This document shows, in pieces, positions 17,066 to 32,574 of a DNA stretch of 64,000 bases (position 1 is its first letter; each line of letters opens with the position of its first letter). The stretch is from Aneurinibacillus uraniidurans (GTDB lineage: Bacteria > Bacillota > Bacilli > Aneurinibacillales > Aneurinibacillaceae), in contig NZ_CP116902.1 of NCBI RefSeq assembly GCF_028471905.1, positions 842,501 to 906,500 on the forward strand, given 5' to 3'. Made by a program: the position numbers and the translations under genes. The notes beneath the pieces are model-generated. The model saw only the letters and a list, made by a program, of their open reading frames with translations, did not search any database and was not told the origin of the DNA.

Positions 17066-18271
17066 TTACTGATACAGCAAATAGTTCTTGCGTTCTTCTT
17101 TAAACTTCTTCAATCCTGGTGCATACTTTGCCTCGATTTGCTGCGGTGTTAGTCCTTGCAACAAGTACTGACCAATCTTATCCGTACCCATGATCTTATC
17201 AAACATTACAATTTCCTTGCCGCTGCGTGGTACTTTGAAATTGTTTAACTTGTGTGCATACGCAAGCGCATAAATACCAGTGCGTGCCGGATTGAATGTG
17301 TGATAGTTCGTGATGTTTAAACGTACACCGCCTGAGCTGCCACGCTTTTCAGCTATGAACGTTACACCTGGTAGTTTCGCACCGTTCATCAATGCCGCAT
17401 ATTTTTTCGAATCAATGCCTTTGCCACCAATCCAAGTGAATGGACCATCCTGGAATATCCCCGTTCCCTCACCGAGACCAGTTGCATTATAACCAAATAC
17501 AGACTGCATGTTTGGCATAAGCGGTGAACTTTGTACCCATTTCAGCCCCGTATCCTGGAAGATCATATTGCGCGTATAGCCTTCCATCGGTACGACAGAT
17601 AGATTCGCTTTAATTTTCCGGTTAAAGAAGTAAGCGAGTTCTCCTGCGGTCATGCCGTGTGTCATCGGCAGGTTGTCTACCCCGACGAATGTTTTGAATT
17701 TATCTTCTAGCACTGGACCATCGACAATTGTGCCGCCGAGTGGGTTCGGGCGGTCCAGAATGACAATCGGGATACCAGCTTTTTGTGCGGCCACCATACA
17801 ATAGTTCATTGTCGACATGAATGTATACGAACGAGCTCCGATATCCTGCATGTCAAATACAAGCACATCTACATTTTTAAGCATAGCCGGTGTCGGCATG
17901 CGAGTCGTTCCATACAAACTGTATACCGGGATTTTAAGGGTCGGATGTGTGTAAGATGTTACATACGCTCCTGCTTTTGCTTTGCCATCGAGTCCGTGTT
18001 CTGGGCTGTACAGCGCGGTAAGTGAAGCACCGGGATAGGAGGCTAGCACATCTATCATGCTGACTCCCTTACTGTTGACACCTGTTTGGTTCGTAATTAA
18101 TCCGATACGTTTGCCGTCAATGAGATGAGAATACTTCTCTAGTAAAATATCATCGCCTAACTTAAAAGAGGATGTATCGGGTGCTTGCGGTGCAACAGAA
18201 GCTGATGCAGGCAGGATCATCCCTATAAGCAGTACGATTAGTGCCGTAAGCACTGACAACCATTTTTTCAT
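17066..18271 (-). CDS. namZ: exo-beta-N-acetylmuramidase NamZ (DUF1343)
   Basis: 401 residues with a Sec signal peptide (LTALIVLLIGMILPASASV). The DUF1343 domain contains GKRIGLITNQTGV, YSPEHGL, VLVFDMQDIGARSYTF and GIPIVILDRPNPLGG. In B. subtilis the family member NamZ (YbbC) releases terminal N-acetylmuramic acid from peptidoglycan fragments and is secreted for cell-wall recycling. Here it stands alone, without the nagZ/amiE neighbours found in Bacillus. GGGAGAAAG precedes the ATG. Confidence 0.92.
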   Translation of the reverse strand: MKKWLSVLTALIVLLIGMILPASASVAPQAPDTSSFKLGDDILLEKYSHLIDGKRIGLITNQTGVNSKGVSMIDVLASYPGASLTALYSPEHGLDGKAKAGAYVTSYTHPTLKIPVYSLYGTTRMPTPAMLKNVDVLVFDMQDIGARSYTFMSTMNYCMVAAQKAGIPIVILDRPNPLGGTIVDGPVLEDKFKTFVGVDNLPMTHGMTAGELAYFFNRKIKANLSVVPMEGYTRNMIFQDTGLKWVQSSPLMPNMQSVFGYNATGLGEGTGIFQDGPFTWIGGKGIDSKKYAALMNGAKLPGVTFIAEKRGSSGGVRLNITNYHTFNPARTGIYALAYAHKLNNFKVPRSGKEIVMFDKIMGTDKIGQYLLQGLTPQQIEAKYAPGLKKFKEERKNYLLYQ

Positions 18272-21405: not shown

Positions 21406-22125
21406 TTATTCGTCTGCCATGCCGTACACATCAAGCACCTGCTCGATGCGTCGTTGCTTCCGCTCGATGACCCGTTCAATAAATCGCTCGTAGTCATCAT
21501 CGGCCTGCCGATTTCGTTCCGCATATAGATGCTTGAGTTGAGTCAGATGCTCAATGAGTGTTAGATCGGTAGAATAAGCATCACCGGCCTTAACCTTGCG
21601 CAAAATGATCTCTAGCAGTTTTTCATTCGATGCCTCGATTGATTTTGTACCTTGCCGAATGTAGATCGCGCCATAGCGTAACTCGCCTCGACTGATAATC
21701 GAAGTATACGGAACGTATTTCGGATCGTATTCAATAATAAGCACCTGAAACTTTTTATCCGTAAATGGAGCAGATGCTTGCCCATCAAAAATAAAATCTT
21801 CCGTGCGGTATTTGACCCAGCTTGGCAGATAATTGCCGAGTTTATTATCTACGTCGGCCTTATCGAGAAAATCTTGATTAGACAAGCCATCAAGAGAGGA
21901 ACTGCCATCCGCTTGCTGCCCCACTCCAACAATAATCGAGCCGCCACCCGAGTTCGCAATCGCGAGAATATGTTTAGCGAGTTTCGTGAGATCAATCCAC
22001 TTCGCTTTAAAATCGAGAAAGTCTGTTTCTCCTGTATTATGGAGCAGCAAGTCGCACAGTGTATCATGCGTAGGATCAAGCAGAAAATCTTTCAGCTTTT
22101 GTGGCTGAATATCTTCATAAAACAT
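21406..22125 (-). CDS. AlbA_2 (Schlafen-like) putative DNA-binding/ATPase protein
   Basis: 239 residues. The AlbA_2 domain (PF04326) shows FLDFKAKWIDLTKLAKHILAIANSGGGSIIVGVG, i.e. the E/D-K and AxANSxGGxIxxGV motif, at about residues 35-75, then YGAIYIRQGTKSIEAS. The C-terminus is a charged helix (YERFIERVIERKQRRIEQ). Proteins of this type are found in defence and in regulatory loci; nothing nearby indicates which. GGAAGGGCG precedes the ATG. Confidence 0.8.
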   Translation of the reverse strand: MFYEDIQPQKLKDFLLDPTHDTLCDLLLHNTGETDFLDFKAKWIDLTKLAKHILAIANSGGGSIIVGVGQQADGSSSLDGLSNQDFLDKADVDNKLGNYLPSWVKYRTEDFIFDGQASAPFTDKKFQVLIIEYDPKYVPYTSIISRGELRYGAIYIRQGTKSIEASNEKLLEIILRKVKAGDAYSTDLTLIEHLTQLKHLYAERNRQADDDYERFIERVIERKQRRIEQVLDVYGMADE

Positions 22126-22596: not shown

Positions 22597-22643
22597 ACAG
22601 AAAGCCCTCACTATCCAAAATGGATTGCGAGGGCTTTCTGTTT
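22597..22643. terminator. bidirectional terminator
   Basis: AACAGAAAGCCCTC / GAGGGCTTTCTGTT, a 14-bp perfect stem between convergent genes, with T-rich sequence after it on the + strand. Confidence 0.85.
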
Positions 22644-25600
22644 ATTTATTTACTGCACTTCCTAGCCGTTTAAGCTTATTCCATCCAACTGTGATTCCGC
22701 GCAGCGCAGACCAGATTGACTTTATGACAACATACGTCATGAACTGTCGGTAAATAATTCGCTGCAGGAACAGCCAGATCAAAGGTTTCGGGCTTTCTTC
22801 CTCCAGGCGGAATGCATAGAAGGAGGCAAGAAAATCAACCAGGAAGAACACAACATAGAACAATAATGTTTTTTGCGGCTGTACGCCGAACAGTCCCATA
22901 ACAAAGAGAATGTCAGCGAGCGGTGCAATCAACTGGAATACGTATTGGAACAGCCACATATTAGGCAGGCCAACAAATCCGAGCGATTTTTGTTTCCGAT
23001 TAAAGAGCGCACCCCGGTGTTTCCATAAGCACTGAAGGGTACCGTATGTCCAGCGATAGCGCTGCTTGATCAGGCTGCGGACGTCTTCCGGCGCTTCAGT
23101 ATAGGCGTAAGCTCGTTCTTCGTACATAATCCGATACCCGTTACGCAGAAGCGTCAGTGTAATATCAGTATCTTCCGCTAGAGTATCTTCCTGGAAATAA
23201 CCAACTTCGGCTACCGCTTTTTTGCGCCACGCTCCAATTGCTCCTGGAACGACAGCGATGCAGTTTAGTTCATCGAACGCACGTCGGTCCAGATTAAACC
23301 CAGTGACATACTCCACATGCTGCCATTTGGTCAGCAGGTTACGGGCATTTCCGACTTTTACGTTTCCAGAGACCGCAGCAATGCTAGGATCAACAAAGTG
23401 ACGGGTAAGCAGAGCAATGGCGTCTTTCGCAATGAGTGTATCCGCATCAAGGGCGATGACGATGTCACCGGATGCTTCCATGAATCCGCGGTTTACGGCA
23501 GACGATTTCCCGCCATTTTCTTTGGAAATCAGTTTGACATACGGATATTCTTTAAACGTTTCTTTTACTACTTCCGCTGTAAGGTCAGTCGATCCATCAT
23601 CGACAACAATGATTTCAAAGTCTGGATAATTACTTTCCAAAATCGAATGTACCGTTTTCGCAATAACTTTTTCTTCATTATAAGCTGCGATTACCACGCT
23701 GACCGGCGGAGTAAAATTCATATTTACCGCACGGGCGCGACTTCTTCGCTTCTGTCTAGAAGCAAGATAGATCAGAACGAGGAAGCGAATCATCCCAACA
23801 CCAATGGATAGATAGAATAAAAAGGCAATTCCTTTCTGCCATCCAGAAACAGCTGTGAAGACGGTTTTGTCATACGTCATAAACGGATTTTCCGTGTGTG
23901 AAACAACCGGCATAAGATCATTTGGTGTCTTGCCAAGTAATTGATGCACCGTCGTAAATGTGTAGCCCATATGTTGTAGTTTTTCAATGAGCTTCGGCAG
24001 TGCTTCGACTGTATGAGAACGATCGCCACCCGCATCATGAAGCAGAATAATATTCCCATCCGGTAATTCTTTCAGAACACGTCTTACAATCTCATCACTA
24101 GATGGGTCCTGCCAGTCTTCCGGGTCGACTGCTTCTCCGACCATCGTATAGCCCATCTGCTGTGCCCGTAAAATCGGCAGTAGCTCTTCAGGCGTAGATG
24201 GAGAAGAGTCGGCCACGTAAGGCGGACGAAACATCGTCATGGAGTGCCCGGTCAATTCCTGGAACAGCCGCTGGTTCGCATTTAGCTCCATTTTTGCACG
24301 GATCGGGGAGATTGACGCCACGTTTGGATGGGTAAACGTATGGCTTCCGATCTCATGGCCTTCTCTATACATTCGTCGGATGAGATCTGGATTTACTTGC
24401 GCATTTTCGCCCACAATAAAGAACGAGCCTTTTATATGATATCGATCCAGAATATCAAGAATTTTTGGTGTATATTCTGGATCAGGCCCATCGTCAAATG
24501 TGAGCACAACTTGTTTTCCTGCAGCTTTACCATATCGACTTATCTGGAACGGAGATGGATAAGTTGTATAGGATTCTCCAGAAAGTGTTCCGTCTTCATC
24601 CACAGAAAAGTCACGTTCCCCATCTTTGGCAGACGAAGTAATCTGCAAAATCTCACCGTCTCCTGAATAATGAACAGGTTCCGGGCTTACTAATGTATGA
24701 AGTGTGTTGACTTGTGACTGAAATTGATCCGGCTGGTTCAATACATTCCAGACAGTCGGATCTTCTGAGCCAAGCCGCCACAAGGCGACGCCCTTGGCTC
24801 CATTTTCATGAGCCATTTTCCATTGATTGTACATAGAAACACCATCTAAAAACCAGACAATGTGTTGGTCTTCGCCTTCTTTGTAACGCACATACGGATT
24901 TTGGCTAGCTTGATCCCACTGGATGTGCAGATGGGAAGCGCTCGCCATATCCATAATATCGCCAAATGTCACGACATCGGCAGGGTCACTGCTGTTTTCT
25001 GTCCAGTCGTATCCGTAGCTTCCTAAGCTGACGATCAGCTTGTCAGGTGGGATATCGAGTTGGTCTAATGATTGCTCAAACCAGGAGCTAGAGGCGATCG
25101 GCCCTGGCTTTCCTGTTTGATAATGCTCATCATAGAGCATGACAATCATCCGGTCTGTAACTTTGGCGAGCGCACCGTAATCAAAAGCGTCATCTTTCGC
25201 CGGGACATCCTCAGTTAGCTGCAGACCAGCAGCATGGAACGTATGAGATAACTCTCCCATAAAAGCAGTGAGCGCATCTTGATCTTTCGGATCGATCGAT
25301 TCCAAGTCAATGTTAAAGCCGGAATATCCATTTGTTTTTGCTTCTGTATACAATTGATCAATAACTTTCTTTCTATTTTCAGGCGAAGCAAGCATGTTGT
25401 GGACAAGAGCAGCATCCCATTTTCCATTCACAAAGTTATTGATAAGCGGCATAACTTTTACATGATTATCCGCCGCTAATTTTTGTACATCAGGTTGAAT
25501 GTCTTTTTGTAAGGTTAAATTCGAAGTAAGGTGATACCATTCTGGAATTACGGTAGTCAGGGAACGAATATTTTTTTTCAGTGAGATTTTACTGTTTTCA

Positions 25601-26061
25601 TCCCAATTTACATAGAATCCATATACTTCTTTTTGACCTGACGACTGGACTTTGTTGTCTTTATGATGCTTTTTAAAATCAAGCTGAAAAGTCGGGTGCT
25701 TTTTATCTTCTTCTTTTAGCTGCGCTATTAAAGAGCGCTCATTAATTTTTTCGATGATAGGGCTAATGAGAGCGAACTTGCTGTTTTCATTAAAGGATAG
25801 CCGTGGAAGAGATGGATCCGAATTTAGGCTAAGGCCAAATATACATAAGATAAGAGCCGAAATGAGCCCAAACACGATACTAATCCGTTTTATTAAAGAC
25901 CAGCGATAGCCAGAATCATCATGAAAAATGAAATTTTTTGTTTCCCCTTTTTCAGTACGATTCATTTTTTTACGATACAGCGAAGTAAACAGAAAATAAG
26001 CAAGTGTAATAACGAGAATGATTTCGATAATATGGATAGACGGTATCCATTCATTCATCAT
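22642..26061 (-). CDS. GH18 - polysaccharide deacetylase - GT2 fusion protein
   Basis: 1139 residues joining three enzymes. After N-terminal membrane segments (about 8-25 and 55-80), residues 145-450 form a glycoside hydrolase 18-like barrel (YSGFNIDLESIDPKDQD, ALWRLGSEDPTVW). Residues 515-725 are a NodB deacetylase (VVLTFDDGPDPEYTPKIL, HEIGSHTFTHPNV, MFRPPY). A membrane span (about 750-770) leads to a processive GT2 (VVIAAYNEEKVIAKTV, VVDDGSTDLTAEVV, IALDADT, EDTDITLTLLRNG, QRYRW) and C-terminal spans. It probably makes and trims a beta-linked GlcNAc-type exopolysaccharide. The downstream gene in the same direction, and the two-component system divergent from it, are likely partners. GGAGGATC precedes the ATG. 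Confidence 0.92.
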   Translation of the reverse strand: MMNEWIPSIHIIEIILVITLAYFLFTSLYRKKMNRTEKGETKNFIFHDDSGYRWSLIKRISIVFGLISALILCIFGLSLNSDPSLPRLSFNENSKFALISPIIEKINERSLIAQLKEEDKKHPTFQLDFKKHHKDNKVQSSGQKEVYGFYVNWDENSKISLKKNIRSLTTVIPEWYHLTSNLTLQKDIQPDVQKLAADNHVKVMPLINNFVNGKWDAALVHNMLASPENRKKVIDQLYTEAKTNGYSGFNIDLESIDPKDQDALTAFMGELSHTFHAAGLQLTEDVPAKDDAFDYGALAKVTDRMIVMLYDEHYQTGKPGPIASSSWFEQSLDQLDIPPDKLIVSLGSYGYDWTENSSDPADVVTFGDIMDMASASHLHIQWDQASQNPYVRYKEGEDQHIVWFLDGVSMYNQWKMAHENGAKGVALWRLGSEDPTVWNVLNQPDQFQSQVNTLHTLVSPEPVHYSGDGEILQITSSAKDGERDFSVDEDGTLSGESYTTYPSPFQISRYGKAAGKQVVLTFDDGPDPEYTPKILDILDRYHIKGSFFIVGENAQVNPDLIRRMYREGHEIGSHTFTHPNVASISPIRAKMELNANQRLFQELTGHSMTMFRPPYVADSSPSTPEELLPILRAQQMGYTMVGEAVDPEDWQDPSSDEIVRRVLKELPDGNIILLHDAGGDRSHTVEALPKLIEKLQHMGYTFTTVHQLLGKTPNDLMPVVSHTENPFMTYDKTVFTAVSGWQKGIAFLFYLSIGVGMIRFLVLIYLASRQKRRSRARAVNMNFTPPVSVVIAAYNEEKVIAKTVHSILESNYPDFEIIVVDDGSTDLTAEVVKETFKEYPYVKLISKENGGKSSAVNRGFMEASGDIVIALDADTLIAKDAIALLTRHFVDPSIAAVSGNVKVGNARNLLTKWQHVEYVTGFNLDRRAFDELNCIAVVPGAIGAWRKKAVAEVGYFQEDTLAEDTDITLTLLRNGYRIMYEERAYAYTEAPEDVRSLIKQRYRWTYGTLQCLWKHRGALFNRKQKSLGFVGLPNMWLFQYVFQLIAPLADILFVMGLFGVQPQKTLLFYVVFFLVDFLASFYAFRLEEESPKPLIWLFLQRIIYRQFMTYVVIKSIWSALRGITVGWNKLKRLGSAVNK

Positions 26062-26090
26062 ATCTGATCCTCCATCTTCCAGAGTAGTGA

Positions 26091-27434
26091 TTATGCACGT
26101 GGCGCTGTCTTCGTATAATCAAATGTGTCAGGTGCGAACCATTTAATGCTGATGCTTCGCTTTCCGGTTTGATCCGGAGGGTTATGTTGAACGTCTTTTG
26201 GATCGAGTTCATGTTCACCGATAAAAAGTTCTACGTTATGAGGATCTGCTACGTAGAACGTTATCCCGCGAACATCGTTTATCGTTACAGGACGCGAGCC
26301 AAAGAGCGGGTCTTTAATGGAGTATAGCTGGATTTTTGTTTTTCCTTCCGGCGTGGTCGTAACCGAATAATCAAGAAAATTGTGTGCAACATTGTAGTGA
26401 AGCAGGCGGCTGGTGCGTGCGACTAGAATGCGGCCGCTAGCTTGATAGTAGGCAAGCATACGCAGCGGCTGAATGTTCTTGTTGTCAAACGGATCGAGTC
26501 CATTTCCACCCCCAAAATGCTGGGCAATGATCGAATATTCATGTCTAGCTACCAGTTCATCCAACCTTTTTGATGTTAGTTGCATATACAAAGCCCTCGG
26601 TCCCCACGTCCAGTTCACACCGTGTTTGGTACGGTCAAAAGCATAGCGATGAAATCCCCATATGTTCTGTCCATCACGCAGCCTGATCGGGAAGATGGCA
26701 TTTTTTTCTCCGAATGCAGCGTCTCCCCTTGAGTTCCATACGAAATGCACACCATTCTTACGGATTAGATCCGTATGGTAGTAGGGTGAATATTTATTGT
26801 CACCTTGCTGATAAGCAGTAAAGCTGAACGGAGAATAAGCCCCGAAGTTCTCACGATTTGCTTCATTCCCGTGATTGATCCATATGTCAGGATGGATACC
26901 ATCCTGATTCAGATGATCCCATGCTGCCATCGCAAGGTCTCGCGTACAAAGCCCTTCATTACGGTTTACACGGGAAAAATCACCATACCCATGCATAGAA
27001 TCAATCCAACCTGCACGATAATAATGGTTAATTAAGGCAGCGTCTTTCTTCTTGGTGCGATCTGTGCCAACAAAATAAGTCATAATGGCATTTGACGTAT
27101 GCTTTTGATTGTCCACATAATAAGGATTAGAACTATTCGTATCCATGTACATCCAGAAACTATCGCCAATATCAAGTCCTAATCCAGTTCCCATGGGTGT
27201 AGGGGACTTCGTGTTTAAGAACTGGTGGTATTGAGCAAATTCTTCCGGAGTTGTACCATCAATATCAGAAGCAAACGAAAGCATAGCCTGATATGGATAC
27301 GGAAATGGACGCATCTGTACGTGTGGAATCGAAGAAGTTGAAAAGTCGCTTTTGATAAAAAATATAATGCTGAGCATGGCCGATAAAAATAATGCCACGG
27401 TGATCCAGGGACGGATTAGTACGGTACGGTTCAT
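26091..27434 (-). CDS. membrane-anchored protein of unknown function, deacetylase-like barrel
   Basis: 447 residues. One N-terminal anchor (about 10-28), then an extracytoplasmic domain. Phrases such as MLSFASDIDGTTPEEF, DSMHGYGDFSR and DIWINHGNEANRENFG recall the metal-site Asp-Asp and His motifs of carbohydrate esterase 4-like barrels, but the canonical TFDDGP is missing. The C-terminal 100 residues are beta-rich (ITFYVADPHNVELFIGEHE). It lies 29 nt upstream of the GH18-NodB-GT2 gene on the same strand, so the two are one operon and it probably acts on the same polysaccharide. I do not recognise a named family. Confidence 0.65.
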   Translation of the reverse strand: MNRTVLIRPWITVALFLSAMLSIIFFIKSDFSTSSIPHVQMRPFPYPYQAMLSFASDIDGTTPEEFAQYHQFLNTKSPTPMGTGLGLDIGDSFWMYMDTNSSNPYYVDNQKHTSNAIMTYFVGTDRTKKKDAALINHYYRAGWIDSMHGYGDFSRVNRNEGLCTRDLAMAAWDHLNQDGIHPDIWINHGNEANRENFGAYSPFSFTAYQQGDNKYSPYYHTDLIRKNGVHFVWNSRGDAAFGEKNAIFPIRLRDGQNIWGFHRYAFDRTKHGVNWTWGPRALYMQLTSKRLDELVARHEYSIIAQHFGGGNGLDPFDNKNIQPLRMLAYYQASGRILVARTSRLLHYNVAHNFLDYSVTTTPEGKTKIQLYSIKDPLFGSRPVTINDVRGITFYVADPHNVELFIGEHELDPKDVQHNPPDQTGKRSISIKWFAPDTFDYTKTAPRA

Positions 27435-27547
27435 AGCTTTTGATCCTTTTATTTTTCTCTGTATAGAGAAGCATAAGATAACAAAATAAGAAGGGGCTAA
27501 GAGATATATTAAAATTTGATGAGAGGAAAAAAAAGGAGGGGGAAATC

Positions 27548-28237
27548 TTGCGAAAGATTCTAATCATTGAAGATGAAGAGAACATCGCCCGGTTTATTGA
27601 ACTTGAACTTAAGCATGAAGGATTTAGTGTGGAAATTGCCTATGATGGAAGAAGTGGATTAGAAAAAGCACTGGATGTAGAGTGGGATATGATCTTACTC
27701 GATCTGATGCTCCCGGGTTTGAATGGAATGGAGGTATGCAGGCGAATTCGTCAGACGAAAAATACACCGATCATTATGCTAACAGCTCGTACGAGTGTAC
27801 TGGACCGTGTATCCGGACTTGACAGTGGTGCAGACGATTACATTACAAAACCACTGGCAATTGAAGAGTTACTTGCTAGAATGCGAGCTTTATTCCGGCG
27901 CACAGATAACCGGACGGAAAAAAGGGTGGATTCTATCCTGCGGTATAAAAATGTTGAAGTAAATATGGAATCACAAATTGTAAAACGGGATGGAGAAATT
28001 ATTTCGTTAACAAAACGGGAGTATGATTTGTTAACGATGTTTATGCGTAACATCAATCGAGTCATGACCCGAGACTTACTGCTGGATCTTGTGTGGGGGT
28101 ATGATTCGGCAGTTGAGACAAATGTCGTGGATGTATATGTCCTATATTTACGTAACAAACTCGATACGCCAGGACAGGAAAGCATCATTCAAACTGTGCG
28201 AGGAACAGGGTATGTCATGCGAAACACAGAAGGATAA
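27548..28237 (+). CDS. OmpR-family response regulator
   Basis: 229 residues. Receiver domain with the acidic pocket (IIEDEEN), the phospho-acceptor Asp52 in LLDLMLPG, conserved Thr in MLTAR, and Lys in DDYITKPL. The C-terminal winged helix (TKREYDLLTMFMRN, VDVYVLYLRNKLD, VRGTGYVM) binds DNA. It starts at TTG 27548 with AAAGGAGGGGG upstream. It is 5 nt from its kinase and divergent from the polysaccharide operon, which is a plausible target. Closest in style to ArlR/CssR-type regulators. Confidence 0.93.
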   Translation: MRKILIIEDEENIARFIELELKHEGFSVEIAYDGRSGLEKALDVEWDMILLDLMLPGLNGMEVCRRIRQTKNTPIIMLTARTSVLDRVSGLDSGADDYITKPLAIEELLARMRALFRRTDNRTEKRVDSILRYKNVEVNMESQIVKRDGEIISLTKREYDLLTMFMRNINRVMTRDLLLDLVWGYDSAVETNVVDVYVLYLRNKLDTPGQESIIQTVRGTGYVMRNTEG

Positions 28238-28242
28238 CGGAT

Positions 28243-29643
28243 ATGTATAAAAAACGGACGTCTAATTCTCTTACATCACGCCTAGCCTTTTTATTTACGA
28301 TTGCCATGTTATTCTTTTTGTTGATTACGAATGTATTTGTCTACTGGGCAACGATGCAGCTTGTTTATCGTCACCAGCACCAGCTGCTTCAGTCGAAAGC
28401 TGATGTGATAACAAACGAAATATCAGAAGATTTGTCTACCCATTCCAAGCTGAATGAGGTGCATTTGCGACAAATGCTTAGTAAATTTGTTAATGAATAT
28501 CAGGCAGTTTCCCTTTTCAACGGGGATGGCACAGAAATTATCACGGTAAAAGGATCAAAGTGGAGACCGGAGAGCATAAGTGATATTGAGAAAGTATTTG
28601 AGCCTGAATCGTATTTTATTATTCAGATGAGAGCGTTTCGGGATGATCGAACCTTTTCTGTGCCTGGTTTTGCGAAACCGCTGCGACTTGAAATGTTTGA
28701 GGATGCCAAGCCATTGAACCATTTTATTCGGATTCTTCTCCTTATCCTGGGCACAGCATCCGTTGGAGCCATTGTAATTTCTGGTGTAGGCGGCTATTTT
28801 TTGTCTCGTTTTGGTTTACGTCCATTAAATCGTTTAATGACAGAAATTTATGAGATGAAAGCCGCCTCTTTATCTCCACGGTTGTCGCTCCAATCGACAG
28901 CACAAGAAATTACGGCCCTTACGGATGCGTTTAATGGGCTGTTGGACCGAATTGAAGCTGCATTGGCCAAGCAGAAGCAGTTTGTCTCGGATGCATCCCA
29001 TGAATTACGCACGCCTTTGACGATTATTGACGGGTATTTACGGCTATTAGATAGATGGGGAAAGGATGAAGTAGAAATACGGGAAGAAGCGATACAGGCG
29101 ATGAAGCAGGAATGCGGGCGACTGTTCCATCTCGTAGACGACTTGCTGCTCCTAGCCAAGATGGAGGAGGGAACTGCAGCGGCAGAGACTTTAGAGGTGC
29201 AGGATCTTGAACCGCTTCTAGAAGAAGTACAACAAGCCTGGTCATCAGCTTTTCCTGCTCATTTGAAATTAGTTTGTAAGTGGGAGAGTCCGCTCGTGAT
29301 CGCGATGGATCGGGAGAAATTTCGCCGACTTCTCGATATTTTTCTAGACAATGCACGCAAATATACGGATGAAGGGGAGGTGCGGCTGACAGCCTATAAG
29401 CAAGAAAAACAAGTCCACATCGTTGTAGAGGATACGGGAATTGGGATTGATGAAAAAGAAATTCCCTTCCTTTTTGAACGGTTTTATCGCGTAGATAAAT
29501 CGCGTAATCGTCAAAAAGGCGGTAGTGGACTGGGCCTTGCGATTGCTAAAACGATTATAGAGATGCATAGGGGAGAGGTTACGGTGTGTCGGGCCGAGCA
29601 AGGCGGGACAGTCATACACATTGTACTTCCTGGCTATGGATAA
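28243..29643 (+). CDS. sensor histidine kinase
   Basis: 466 residues. TM1 (about 12-37), an extracytoplasmic sensor of about 125 residues, TM2 (about 166-188), HAMP (FGLRPLNRLMTEI), then the phospho-acceptor H-box SDASHELRTPLTII (His about 253). The ATPase domain has N (FLDNARKYTDEG), G1 (VEDTGIGIDE), F and G2 (GGSGLGLAIAKTI) boxes. It phosphorylates the preceding response regulator. The signal is unknown; the envelope genes on both sides suggest cell-surface stress. Confidence 0.94.
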   Translation: MYKKRTSNSLTSRLAFLFTIAMLFFLLITNVFVYWATMQLVYRHQHQLLQSKADVITNEISEDLSTHSKLNEVHLRQMLSKFVNEYQAVSLFNGDGTEIITVKGSKWRPESISDIEKVFEPESYFIIQMRAFRDDRTFSVPGFAKPLRLEMFEDAKPLNHFIRILLLILGTASVGAIVISGVGGYFLSRFGLRPLNRLMTEIYEMKAASLSPRLSLQSTAQEITALTDAFNGLLDRIEAALAKQKQFVSDASHELRTPLTIIDGYLRLLDRWGKDEVEIREEAIQAMKQECGRLFHLVDDLLLLAKMEEGTAAAETLEVQDLEPLLEEVQQAWSSAFPAHLKLVCKWESPLVIAMDREKFRRLLDIFLDNARKYTDEGEVRLTAYKQEKQVHIVVEDTGIGIDEKEIPFLFERFYRVDKSRNRQKGGSGLGLAIAKTIIEMHRGEVTVCRAEQGGTVIHIVLPGYG

Positions 29644-29651
29644 GTTCTCAA

Positions 29652-29690
29652 CAAAAAAAGAAGAGGTGTATATCCCCTTCTTTTTTTTTA
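29652..29690. terminator. bidirectional terminator
   Basis: AAAAAAAGAAGAGG pairs with CCCCTTCTTTTTTTT around a short loop. It separates the kinase gene from the convergent DUF2653 gene. Confidence 0.85.
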
Positions 29691-29698
29691 CAGTCTTG

Positions 29699-29992
29699 TT
29701 ATGCGATAATGATCTCAGCACCAATTTTTTCAAGCTCAGAAAAAGTAAGATCAACTCGCAGATGTTCAGGAACAAAACAATGATATTCAGCTAAATAAAA
29801 AGCGATTGAATCGACGATGTCTTGCTCATAGAATAACGTATGGGCAAAACGGCTGCGAATATCGGCACTAAATCCTCGGTTTTGATCAAACTGAAGATCG
29901 ACCTCGATGTCCTGTGGATGACCACCATGATGTCGAGTTGCAAACACACAACATGAATCAATTATATCCTGTTCTGAAAAATAAAGCTTCAT
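29699..29992 (-). CDS. DUF2653 family protein (YxcD-like)
   Basis: 97 residues built from two copies of one unit: FSEQDIIDSCCVFATRHHG...IEVDLQFDQNRGFSADI and FYEQDIVDSIAFYLAEYHC...LRVDLTFSELEKIGAEI. This internal duplication is typical of the DUF2653 family of Bacillus (YxcD). The function is unknown. AAGGAGTG precedes the ATG. Confidence 0.8.
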   Translation of the reverse strand: MKLYFSEQDIIDSCCVFATRHHGGHPQDIEVDLQFDQNRGFSADIRSRFAHTLFYEQDIVDSIAFYLAEYHCFVPEHLRVDLTFSELEKIGAEIIIA

Positions 29993-30018
29993 AACCGTTC
30001 ACTCCTTCATGCGCTTGA

Positions 30019-30468
30019 TTATCTGGATACGAGACGGCGAATAAAGAAAAAGCCGATCGCAATAATTACGATATCAACTAGCAAGCCAGTAGAGGAGAAC
30101 CCTGAAGTTCCACCTGCACCGATCCCGCCACCAAACGGATGAAACATGCTGCCAAGCAGCGTTCCAGCTCCAAATGCGGCCGCGTGGGATAAGAATCCGC
30201 CAGATTTTTTTGGAGGATCGGCTTGGTGACTATTGTTTGTATAAGAATGCTGTGTGTAATTGCTCACCTGAGAAGAAGGAGAGCGATAGCCTGAATGGTA
30301 CGTAGTAGAAGCTGAACTTTGCGTGAGACGATTGCTGTTGTGTATACTCAAAGCCCCGCCTTGGTGGTAGGAACTTGAATGACCTCCGCTGAATCCTTTT
30401 GCGAATACAGGTACGGGGGAGAGCAGCATCAATCCTGCAATGAATACAGAGATGATTTTTTTGTACAT
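30019..30468 (-). CDS. secreted Ser/His/Gly-rich protein with C-terminal membrane helix
   Basis: 149 residues. Signal peptide (KIISVFIAGLMLLSPVPVFAKG), a low-complexity middle rich in Ser, His, Tyr and Gln (HSSSYHQGG, YTNNSHQ), a Gly-rich stretch (HPFGGGIGAGGTSGFSS), and a C-terminal hydrophobic helix (LVDIVIIAIGFFFI) followed by RRLVSR. The layout recalls TPM-associated or YgcG-like surface proteins, but no domain is clear. It is 26 nt downstream of the DUF2653 gene's start on the same strand, in the opposite order, so co-transcription is likely. Confidence 0.65.
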   Translation of the reverse strand: MYKKIISVFIAGLMLLSPVPVFAKGFSGGHSSSYHQGGALSIHNSNRLTQSSASTTYHSGYRSPSSQVSNYTQHSYTNNSHQADPPKKSGGFLSHAAAFGAGTLLGSMFHPFGGGIGAGGTSGFSSTGLLVDIVIIAIGFFFIRRLVSR

Positions 30469-30525
30469 AGAGTTCCTTCCTTTCTGTTTGTTCTAGTGTG
30501 GTATGGGTCTATTTTGAAAAAAGAC

Positions 30526-30587
30526 GATTAGAATTAAATTAAAACCTTCTTTAAGCAGAATTTAATTTTTTTTACCAGATTCTAATC
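30526..30587. promoter_or_regulatory. large imperfect inverted repeat in divergent promoter region
   Basis: GATTAGAAT at 30526-30534 and its exact complement ATTCTAATC at 30579-30587 bracket a further mirrored AT-rich pair (TTAAATTAAAA / TTTAATTTTTTTT). It lies between the secreted protein gene and the glycosyltransferase gene. It could be an operator for both, possibly for the neighbouring two-component regulator; that is inference. Confidence 0.35.
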
Positions 30588-30679
30588 AATCTCTTAGTTT
30601 TGCCTAATACTCCTTCATTATAATAATTCGAATGCTGATCAAACACCAAACGACTTGAAAAACCTGGGAGATGGTAAAC

Positions 30680-31813
30680 ATGAAGGCAGTAAGGAAAGAA
30701 AAAGTGTGTATTCTTTCCGGAAACTATGGCGATGGACACCTGCAAGCGGCTCATGCCATTCAGGAATCCGCCCGTTTGCATATACCTGAGGTAGAAACAT
30801 TACTTGTAGACTTTATGGAATGTGTACATCCGTATCTGCATTCCATTGGAAGAAATATTTTCATCGAGGGAGTAAAAAACTTCCCTTCTATATATGGATA
30901 TATTTATCGAAAAACACGTACAGTTAACCGCTTTTCTCTTTTTGTGAAATCATGTAATCACATGGGAATATGGCGTATGATTCGTTTTTTGCAGGAGACA
31001 CAGCCTTCTATTGTAGTAAGTACGTTTCCATTAGCGGCCTGTATGATTTCAAAAATAAAGGAACTAGGGTTAACGAATGCGGATGCTGTAACGGTAATTA
31101 CAGACCATACAGATCATAGCAGTTGGATTCATCCGTATACCGATCGATATATTGTAGGATCAGAATTTGTTCGTACTTCTTTGAATCAACTGAAGGTAGA
31201 GGATGAAAAGATTCGGGTAACCGGTATCCCGGTTCGACCAGAATTTTGCAAGAAGTATGATCGAAATGCGCTTCGGGATAAATTCAATCTTGATCAGGAG
31301 TGCCCGACGATTCTAATTATGGGCGGTGGATTCGGAATTATTGGAAATGGATTGTCGAAGATGTTATCTTCTACTTTCCTCTCACAGCCTTTGCAGATTA
31401 TTGTGGTGTGCGGTCATAATGAAAAGCTGCGACAGGAGTTAGAACGTTACCAGGCAGTTTCAAAGCATCGTCTACTTGTAACCGGGTACGTGAACTACAT
31501 TCATGAGCTAATGGCACTTTCTGACTTTATGATTACAAAACCAGGCGGAGTAACAACAGCCGAAGCCATTGCTATGGAGCTTCCAATGCTTCTCTATAAG
31601 CCGCTTCCTGGTCAGGAAGAGGACAACGCTCAAGTCCTGATTAACAGTGGAGTAGCCTTGTACGCAGAAAACGAGGCAGATTTACAACGTTATCTAATAC
31701 AGGTGTTAGAAAACCCTGAAGTTTTAGCACAGATAAGAGAAAAATCACGGCAGTTACATTCGAAATGGGCGGCTTCGCGAGCACTGGACGTAATTGTAAA
31801 AAAGGAAGTATAG
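30680..31813 (+). CDS. UgtP/MGDG-synthase-like glycosyltransferase
   Basis: 377 residues of the GT28 MGDG synthase type. The N-terminal block VCILSGNYGDGHLQAAHAI is the family signature, followed by VSTFPLAACMISKIKE. The C-terminal nucleotide-sugar half has ILIMGGGFGIIGNGL, VVCGHNEKLRQEL and MITKPGGVTTAEAIAMELP. Homologues transfer glucose or galactose to diacylglycerol, making membrane glycolipids or the lipoteichoic acid anchor. ATG 30680 is favoured by GGGAGATGG. It is 2 nt from a deacetylase gene, so the pair are coupled. Confidence 0.9.
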   Translation: MKAVRKEKVCILSGNYGDGHLQAAHAIQESARLHIPEVETLLVDFMECVHPYLHSIGRNIFIEGVKNFPSIYGYIYRKTRTVNRFSLFVKSCNHMGIWRMIRFLQETQPSIVVSTFPLAACMISKIKELGLTNADAVTVITDHTDHSSWIHPYTDRYIVGSEFVRTSLNQLKVEDEKIRVTGIPVRPEFCKKYDRNALRDKFNLDQECPTILIMGGGFGIIGNGLSKMLSSTFLSQPLQIIVVCGHNEKLRQELERYQAVSKHRLLVTGYVNYIHELMALSDFMITKPGGVTTAEAIAMELPMLLYKPLPGQEEDNAQVLINSGVALYAENEADLQRYLIQVLENPEVLAQIREKSRQLHSKWAASRALDVIVKKEV

Positions 31814-31815
31814 GC

Positions 31816-32574
31816 ATGTTAGACAGTATCGGAAAGTTATGGCTGGATGGAGTACTCGTTTTTTTGTTAGTGTATGCGATTATTCCTGGGATCATGGCAC
31901 GTGTAATCGGGATAGGTGTATTTCGGAAGGGACACAAGAAACAAGGAATTGCCCTTACGTTTGACGATGGACCTGATCCACGCTACACTCCGTACTTGTT
32001 GAATTTGTTAAAAACATACAAAATAAAAGCGACGTTTTTCGTTGTTGGATCAAAAGCGGAGAAGTACCCGGCGATCATTCGACGTATGCATCAGGAAGGG
32101 CATGTAATTGGAATTCACAATTATGTCCACCGTTCCAATTGGATTACGAACCCATGGAAGTTATGGAAACAGGTTCATGATTCAGCTGATATTATCGAGC
32201 GGATCACAGGGGAAAGACCTGTTTATTATCGCCCACCGTGGGGATTGTTTACTGTTTTTGATTTTATAATGGGCAGGCCCTTTTTTTTTGTATTATGGTC
32301 AGCTATGGTCGGTGACTGGCGAATTCGGGTAGATCATCGTGTTCTACGAAAAAGAATTCAAACTTGCCTGCATGGCGGGTGTGTACTCGTTTTGCATGAT
32401 AGTGGTGAAACATTCGGGGCTGACCATGATGCTCCCCTCCATATGCTCAAGGCGTTGGAAGATACATTACGGGATGGCGTAAGTAAGGATTACTCCTTTG
32501 TCTTGATTAATGAAATGATGGGGCATGCATCGGAAAATAGGCAAATGGCTCAAAAGCGTACCGGTACACAGTAG
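31816..32574 (+). CDS. membrane-anchored polysaccharide deacetylase
   Basis: 252 residues. N-terminal membrane helix (VLVFLLVYAIIPGIMARV), then a NodB domain: ALTFDDGPDPRYTPYLL (catalytic Asp and metal-binding Asp), HVIGIHNYVHRSNW (the first metal His is in an unusual IHNYVH rather than SHTxxH form), VYYRPPWG and VLVLHDSG. It would remove N-acetyl groups from an extracellular glycan. AAAGGAAG precedes ATG 31816. Translation is probably coupled to the glycosyltransferase before it. Confidence 0.88.
   Translation: MLDSIGKLWLDGVLVFLLVYAIIPGIMARVIGIGVFRKGHKKQGIALTFDDGPDPRYTPYLLNLLKTYKIKATFFVVGSKAEKYPAIIRRMHQEGHVIGIHNYVHRSNWITNPWKLWKQVHDSADIIERITGERPVYYRPPWGLFTVFDFIMGRPFFFVLWSAMVGDWRIRVDHRVLRKRIQTCLHGGCVLVLHDSGETFGADHDAPLHMLKALEDTLRDGVSKDYSFVLINEMMGHASENRQMAQKRTGTQ

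Follow-up and report, generated by a model that had tools for sequence, protein, structure and literature searches.

The window analysed here, 64,000 nucleotides of the 3.85 Mb genome of Aneurinibacillus uraniidurans (contig NZ_CP116902.1, positions 842,501 to 906,500), carries on its minus strand a putative operon of two genes, of which the first encodes an exported protein of 447 residues from an orphan family (U447), and the second a fusion of a GH18 glycoside hydrolase domain, a CE4 (NodB-type) deacetylase domain and a GT2 synthase domain. We favour, with modest confidence, the reading that this operon would serve to produce a regulated, partly de-N-acetylated surface polymer of the poly-N-acetylglucosamine (poly-GlcNAc) type, with U447 as an accessory. 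The fusion protein is widespread and little described, the U447 family is undescribed, and the link between the two is confined to one bacterial family. All elements named in a preliminary description of the region, which had proposed a self-contained system that makes, trims and deacetylates a GlcNAc polymer, were found in their places.

The fusion gene (22642-26061, minus strand) encodes 1139 residues, and the three domains follow each other in the order GH18, CE4, GT2, each scoring far above its Pfam cut-off. GH18 occupies residues 146-431 (24769-25626; 90.9 bits, against a cut-off of 29.6 for PF00704), CE4 residues 512-709 (23935-24528; Pfam match over residues 512-617, 120.5 bits), and GT2 residues 785-1007 (23041-23709; 123.7 bits). 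The key motifs of all three domains are present. The GH18 domain holds the pair D252 and E254 (Asp-x-Glu) within SGFNIDLE, as well as MxYD in the form MLYD; CE4 has TFDDGP, HTFTH, RPPY and LLHD; and GT2 has DDG, DAD, AED and QRYRW. The canonical GH18 motif has Asp at its first position, where the fusion has Ser. The earlier assignment of all three domains to a single protein was borne out, and the catalytic residues of GH18 and GT2, whose absence had been raised as a possible objection, are present in the window protein. In the annotated records examined, the fusion proteins are labelled only "glycosyltransferase", and no paper on a GH18-CE4-GT2 protein was found by title or abstract start among open-licence PMC papers.

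Hydropathy placed hydrophobic segments at about residues 11-29, 60-78, 745-763 and 1037-1084, i.e. before GH18, between CE4 and GT2, and after GT2, so that GH18 and CE4 would face the outside and GT2 the cytoplasm. The best NCBIfam synthase model for the GT2 domain was PgaC_IcaA (208.7 bits, against 100.1 for NodC). We therefore picture the fusion, conditionally, as a synthase that sits in the membrane and makes a surface polymer of the GlcNAc type on its own. In it the C-terminal GT2 domain, by analogy with the PgaC/MatB family, would polymerise the chain and extrude it through its own membrane helices. On the outer face CE4, to judge from its intact motifs, would strip some of the N-acetyl groups, and such partial de-N-acetylation would render the polymer cationic. 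In the lineage of the window GH18 would probably cut or release the chain, and elsewhere it may only be a binding or guide domain. U447, presumably exported and membrane-anchored, would most likely be an accessory enzyme whose substrate is this polymer or a different glycan of the surface.

The U447 gene (26091-27434, minus strand) precedes the fusion gene and is separated from it by 29 base pairs (bp; 26062-26090, minus strand), which contain GGAGG at 26069-26073 and for which no terminator-like hairpin is listed; the two genes would be co-transcribed. The nearest named relative that shares this gene order is Aneurinibacillus aneurinilyticus ATCC 12856, and the gap measures 26-29 bp in the window and in three related loci (L005, L048, L052). 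Divergent from U447, as the preliminary description had it, are genes for an OmpR-type response regulator (27548-28237, plus strand, TTG start) and a sensor histidine kinase (28243-29643, plus strand), a two-component system that probably controls the operon. The extracytoplasmic region of the kinase is weakly similar to ArlS_N (22.5 bits, under the cut-off of 27).

The intergenic region between U447 and the response regulator contains an A/T-rich block ending in ATGAGA (27498-27524, no strand assigned), which is a candidate regulatory site. Across the five divergent U447/response-regulator intergenic regions compared, the block and its terminal ATGAGA line up, and when up to 3 mismatches are allowed the genome contains the longer 27-bp form just once. 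One of the five regions stems from a genome (G487, locus L051) that lacks the fusion and in which the gene facing away from U447 is that of a related response regulator (73% identity), suggesting that the tie of the two-component system to U447 is no weaker than its tie to the fusion. The pair TGAGA-N17-TGAGA alone was rejected as a site, since the window has 3 matches (1 mismatch allowed) against 5.6 expected by chance. In the five aligned regions it is found with no mismatch in two and with one mismatch in three, a level that shuffled intergenic regions reach in 1-6% each. Promoter-like sites were no more numerous than in shuffles.

U447 has one N-terminal hydrophobic segment (residues 9-27), and neither Pfam nor NCBIfam yielded a match for it at E up to 1. 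The best hit of a Pfam scan with single members and a consensus (Asparaginase_C, E 0.0087, under the cut-off) and that of a profile search against the PDB (a surface lipoprotein stretch, E 0.022) were both taken as chance; a second PDB search and a profile search against PHROGs gave no hit, and 93 pattern matches in viral contigs included no relative. Relatives were found in 42 of the 398 class-draw genomes and 7 of the 398 phylum-draw genomes, and one lies on an Alicyclobacillus dauci plasmid. With a profile of 25 members, the strong matches extended to E 2e-171 and the next stood at 0.058, with nothing intermediate; a weak match in one phylum-draw genome (G018) was not recovered by this profile. 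U447 looks new, as had been supposed, in that nothing in Pfam, NCBIfam, PHROGs or the PDB scored credibly as a relative of the family.

Fifty columns, rich in Asp, His, Arg and Trp, are invariant in the 25 aligned sequences; D57, D59, H148, D152, H188 and H306 do not vary in this alignment. The "Asp-Asp/His barrel" of the preliminary description is therefore real as far as its residues are concerned, but the barrel or deacetylase fold has no profile support. No CE4 or DUF2334 match to U447 was obtained in Pfam, and hhalign gave probabilities of 0.04% and 0.07% for two CE4 sets and 0.12% for DUF2334, in what is a weak test since its positive control, DUF2334 against CE4, gave just 18% and 13%. 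Kinship with CE4 or DUF2334 is not claimed: H148 falls on the first His of HxxxH, but block-shuffled profiles scored at least as high as the real one in 40 of 40 and 34 of 40 cases for the CE4 sets, and in 31 of 40 for DUF2334. AlphaFold2, given just two sequences, those of the window and of A. aneurinilyticus, reached a mean pLDDT of 39.9.

When the N-termini of 39 family members were sorted with crude regular expressions, 9 were classed as lipoprotein, 4 as Tat-like and 26 as other, three of the last (L059, L061, L080) also looking like lipoproteins; the export route would accordingly vary within the family, members having a lipobox, a Tat-type signal or a plain signal. The genomic setting of U447 varies. 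At positions 1-2 of 31 loci (122 genes) there are three members each of the CE4, GT group 1, GtrA and SLH families and two each of GT2 and sortase, and none of these six reaches two members among the families listed for the 98 genes at positions 5-6. Near neighbours lean to glycan and surface families more than genes further off, albeit in small counts, with one-member families of the far set known in part and the mapped open reading frames (ORFs) being mechanical, some of them not genes. Eight of the 39 mapped loci had been excluded beforehand, namely the fusion-linked L005, L048 and L052, the A. dauci plasmid (L074), and kin of kept loci (L049, L062, L076, L078), and ORFs cut by an end were dropped from the far set. 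A second family member (60% identity; L047:7927-9249, C1:3146971-3148245) is encoded elsewhere in the window genome; no fusion accompanies it, and in its vicinity are genes for a PRC-barrel protein, for a regulator and for an alpha/beta hydrolase.

Among the 11 genomes of the window's family the fusion is present in 4 and U447 in 6, the fusion genomes being a subset of the U447 genomes. In all four, U447 adjoins the fusion and the two-component pair is divergent; the region of one of them (G453) is identical with that of A. aneurinilyticus (L005). The four U447-linked copies group in the fusion tree (support 96/95), and in the U447 tree the support (54/60) is too low to decide whether the four fusion-linked copies are one clade. 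The simplest reading would be that the two genes were joined once, putatively when the family arose, and that losses followed.

A number of findings weigh against the favoured reading of the operon. The association within the family, 4/4 against 2/7, has a hypergeometric probability of 15/330 = 0.045, calculated by hand and uncorrected for kinship. Outside the family, the class draws contain 36 genomes with U447 and no fusion, 11 with the fusion and no U447, and none with both, so the partnership suggested earlier does not hold in general. Among the 11 fusion loci from Bacillota of other families, none has U447, and one (L093, at low identity) has relatives of the two-component system nearby. 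The score for PgaC_IcaA lies under the curated cut-off of the PgaC/IcaA equivalog model (NCBIfam TIGR03937; 208.7 against 422.3 bits), which leaves the linkage as either beta-1,6 or beta-1,4; by score the fusion is not a member of this equivalog, although it may function like one. Finally, 6 of the 17 fusion proteins aligned have lost the GH18 Asp-x-Glu pair, which is intact in the other 11.

U447 could be a lodger, devoted to some other envelope task under the two-component system and placed before the fusion by an accident of lineage. Its failure to meet the fusion anywhere outside the family points that way, as do the retention of the block in G487 and the unaccompanied second copy in the window genome, whereas the tight spacing in four loci, the adjacency in every fusion genome of the family and the lean of near neighbours elsewhere to glycan and surface genes argue for an accessory. 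We regard such a coincidental placement as a serious possibility that falls somewhat short of being probable.

As for the fusion in the favoured reading, it is not peculiar to the region of the window. At an E value of up to 1e-100, a strict limit that excludes shorter relatives, it is matched in 15 of the 398 class-draw genomes. In PLSDB 26 of 72,556 plasmid records match it, 22 of them over at least 80% of its length. These full-length relatives belong to Sphingobium, Sulfitobacter, Sphingomonas, Novosphingobium, Deinococcus, Prevotella and Limimaricola, and are thus carried by plasmids of Deinococcus, Sphingomonadales, Rhodobacterales and Prevotella. Plasmid proteins of Streptomyces (two) and Kocuria (one) match the CE4-GT2 part only (residues 518-1135 and 504-1138, 36-42% identity), and one Sphingomonas record matches GT2 only. 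All three domains were recognized by Pfam in the Deinococcus, Prevotella and Sphingomonas plasmid proteins, and in the Sulfitobacter protein of L145 Pfam recognized no GH18 at E up to 1e-5.

Every one of the 17 aligned proteins keeps its CE4 and GT2 motifs, whereas the six that have lost Asp-x-Glu are those of L089, L090, L091, L092, L093 and the Sulfitobacter locus L145; the GH18 domain therefore outlasts its active site, and "trimming" is doubtful as a family-wide function. What stands of the preliminary scheme is the fusion, its tight pairing with U447, the two-component system divergent from them and the UgtP-like/CE4 pair discussed below; family-wide trimming is among its doubtful parts. 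It is conceivable that GH18 does not trim at all and is a glycan-binding or guide domain, the working unit being a synthase plus deacetylase as in MatB. The selective loss of the GH18 pair and the existence of CE4-GT2 relatives without GH18, together with the L145 protein, would fit such a role; in the window protein and the three relatives from its own family, however, D252, E254 and MxYD are preserved, as is Asp-x-Glu in the Deinococcus, Prevotella and Sphingomonadales proteins, and we hold a non-trimming GH18 to be a tentative alternative. In three Bacillota genomes (G638, G509, G410; loci L094, L096, L097) the fusion appears as two ORFs or with an internal stop, which may be due to decay, frameshift or assembly error.

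According to PMC5972031, MatB of Streptomyces lividans is needed for poly-N-acetylglucosamine (PNAG); it is a single membrane protein whose CE4 domain lies outside and whose GT2 synthase domain lies inside, and its partner MatA is described as being without known domains. CE4 and GT2 are thus common to MatB and the fusion, and MatB, as described there, is without GH18. The Streptomyces plasmid relatives (about 41% identity over residues 518-1135) have the MatB-type CE4-GT2 architecture, which does not imply that they are MatB. In the PgaB/PgaC and IcaA/IcaB systems the same set of activities is split over separate proteins, and, according to PMC5933820, PgaB holds a glycoside hydrolase besides the PgaC/IcaA-type synthase and CE4-type deacetylase of the machinery. 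This hydrolase is GH153, and that of the fusion GH18. In the survey PMC7112194 the hydrolase domain is linked with the pga operons of Gram-negative bacteria alone, and GH18 in cis in Gram-positive bacteria would by analogy be a parallel solution to it. GH18 is not mentioned in the available portion of a CAZyme survey of the genus (PMC7996765).

The neighbourhood of the fusion differs in other phyla. In Sphingomonadales (12 records) it is accompanied by genes for AcvB/VirJ, MprF and a regulator-kinase pair in 6/6 loci examined, from Sphingomonas (one), Novosphingobium (two) and Sphingobium (three, close kin): L146, L147, L151, L142, L143 and L150, the neighbours in L151 being identified by annotation and equal gene lengths. 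The genes lie within the fetched stretch in an order that differs between loci, and in Sphingobium they form with the fusion one head-to-tail run with ends overlapping or nearly touching. An lpiA-acvB (MprF-AcvB) operon for lysyl-phosphatidylglycerol is known (PMC13197417); its homologues accompany the fusion in Sphingomonadales and are absent beside it in the window, and relatives of MprF, VirJ or DUF3131 are likewise missing from the 11 fusion loci of Bacillota belonging to other families. The MprF/AcvB setting fits control of surface charge, and this gene order suggests that the purpose may be a positive surface charge under envelope stress. On Rhodobacterales plasmids (9 records) a DUF3131 gene directly follows the fusion in 3/3 loci examined (L145:8522-10942, L148:9021-11510, L149:9075-11525). 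A diguanylate cyclase gene follows it in Deinococcus, and nothing telling was found among the neighbours in Prevotella.

Taken further, the fusion could be a cross-phylum, one-protein route to a cationic polymer, co-regulated by two-component systems with membrane charge (lysyl-phosphatidylglycerol, in Sphingomonadales), to which the Aneurinibacillus family would have recruited U447 as founding member of new exported, probably metal-dependent glycan-active enzymes. We consider this combination speculative and, as a whole, rather unlikely. If it were true, one widespread protein would make, deacetylate and trim a GlcNAc polymer for which E. coli and Staphylococcus use several, and polymer charge and lipid charge would possibly be set together, which the Sphingomonadales gene order makes directly testable. 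The orphan family of U447, with its many invariant columns, is a clear target for structure determination and assays.

The UgtP-like glycosyltransferase (MGDG_synth/GT28; 30671-31813, plus strand) and the second CE4 deacetylase (31765-32574, plus strand), both present as previously described, start 1 kb past the kinase, and the listed start of the latter overlaps the former. The diglucosyl-diacylglycerol synthase model PRK13609 scored 295.3 bits, under its cut-off of 500, and the enzyme is hence called UgtP-like only. The pair might make a glycolipid anchor for the polymer, with all six genes forming one pathway, as would be in line with its presence near the fusion in three Aneurinibacillus genomes (the window, L048, L005) and with a distant genome in which U447, UgtP-like and CE4 genes follow in order on one strand (L085:6311-9918). 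No such pair was found, however, close to the fusion of G552 (L052), nor in the 11 loci from Bacillota of other families; PgaC-type polymers are not known to need a lipid anchor, which also counts against this improbable pathway. That the system acts on peptidoglycan or spore cortex rather than an exopolymer, as might be thought from the sequence relatives of its GH18 in the PDB (YdhD, YaaH and a cortical-lytic enzyme are among the nearest solved structures, matching over the GH18 part only) and from the resemblance of CE4 to PdaB and PgdA models, is very unlikely in view of the processive-synthase type of its GT2 and its occurrence on plasmids of Deinococcus, Alphaproteobacteria and Prevotella, which are not known to form spores.

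Two minus-strand genes lie between the kinase and the UgtP-like gene. One encodes a DUF2653 protein (29699-29992), and in L005, L048 and L052 a family of equally long genes (97 residues) recurs at this place; the other is a small gene (30019-30468) with no family over its cut-off. About 500 bases past the downstream end of the fusion, a Schlafen/AlbA_2-domain protein (47.2 bits) is encoded at 21406-22125. A secreted protein at 17066-18271 presumably resembles the DUF1343/NamZ cell-wall family.

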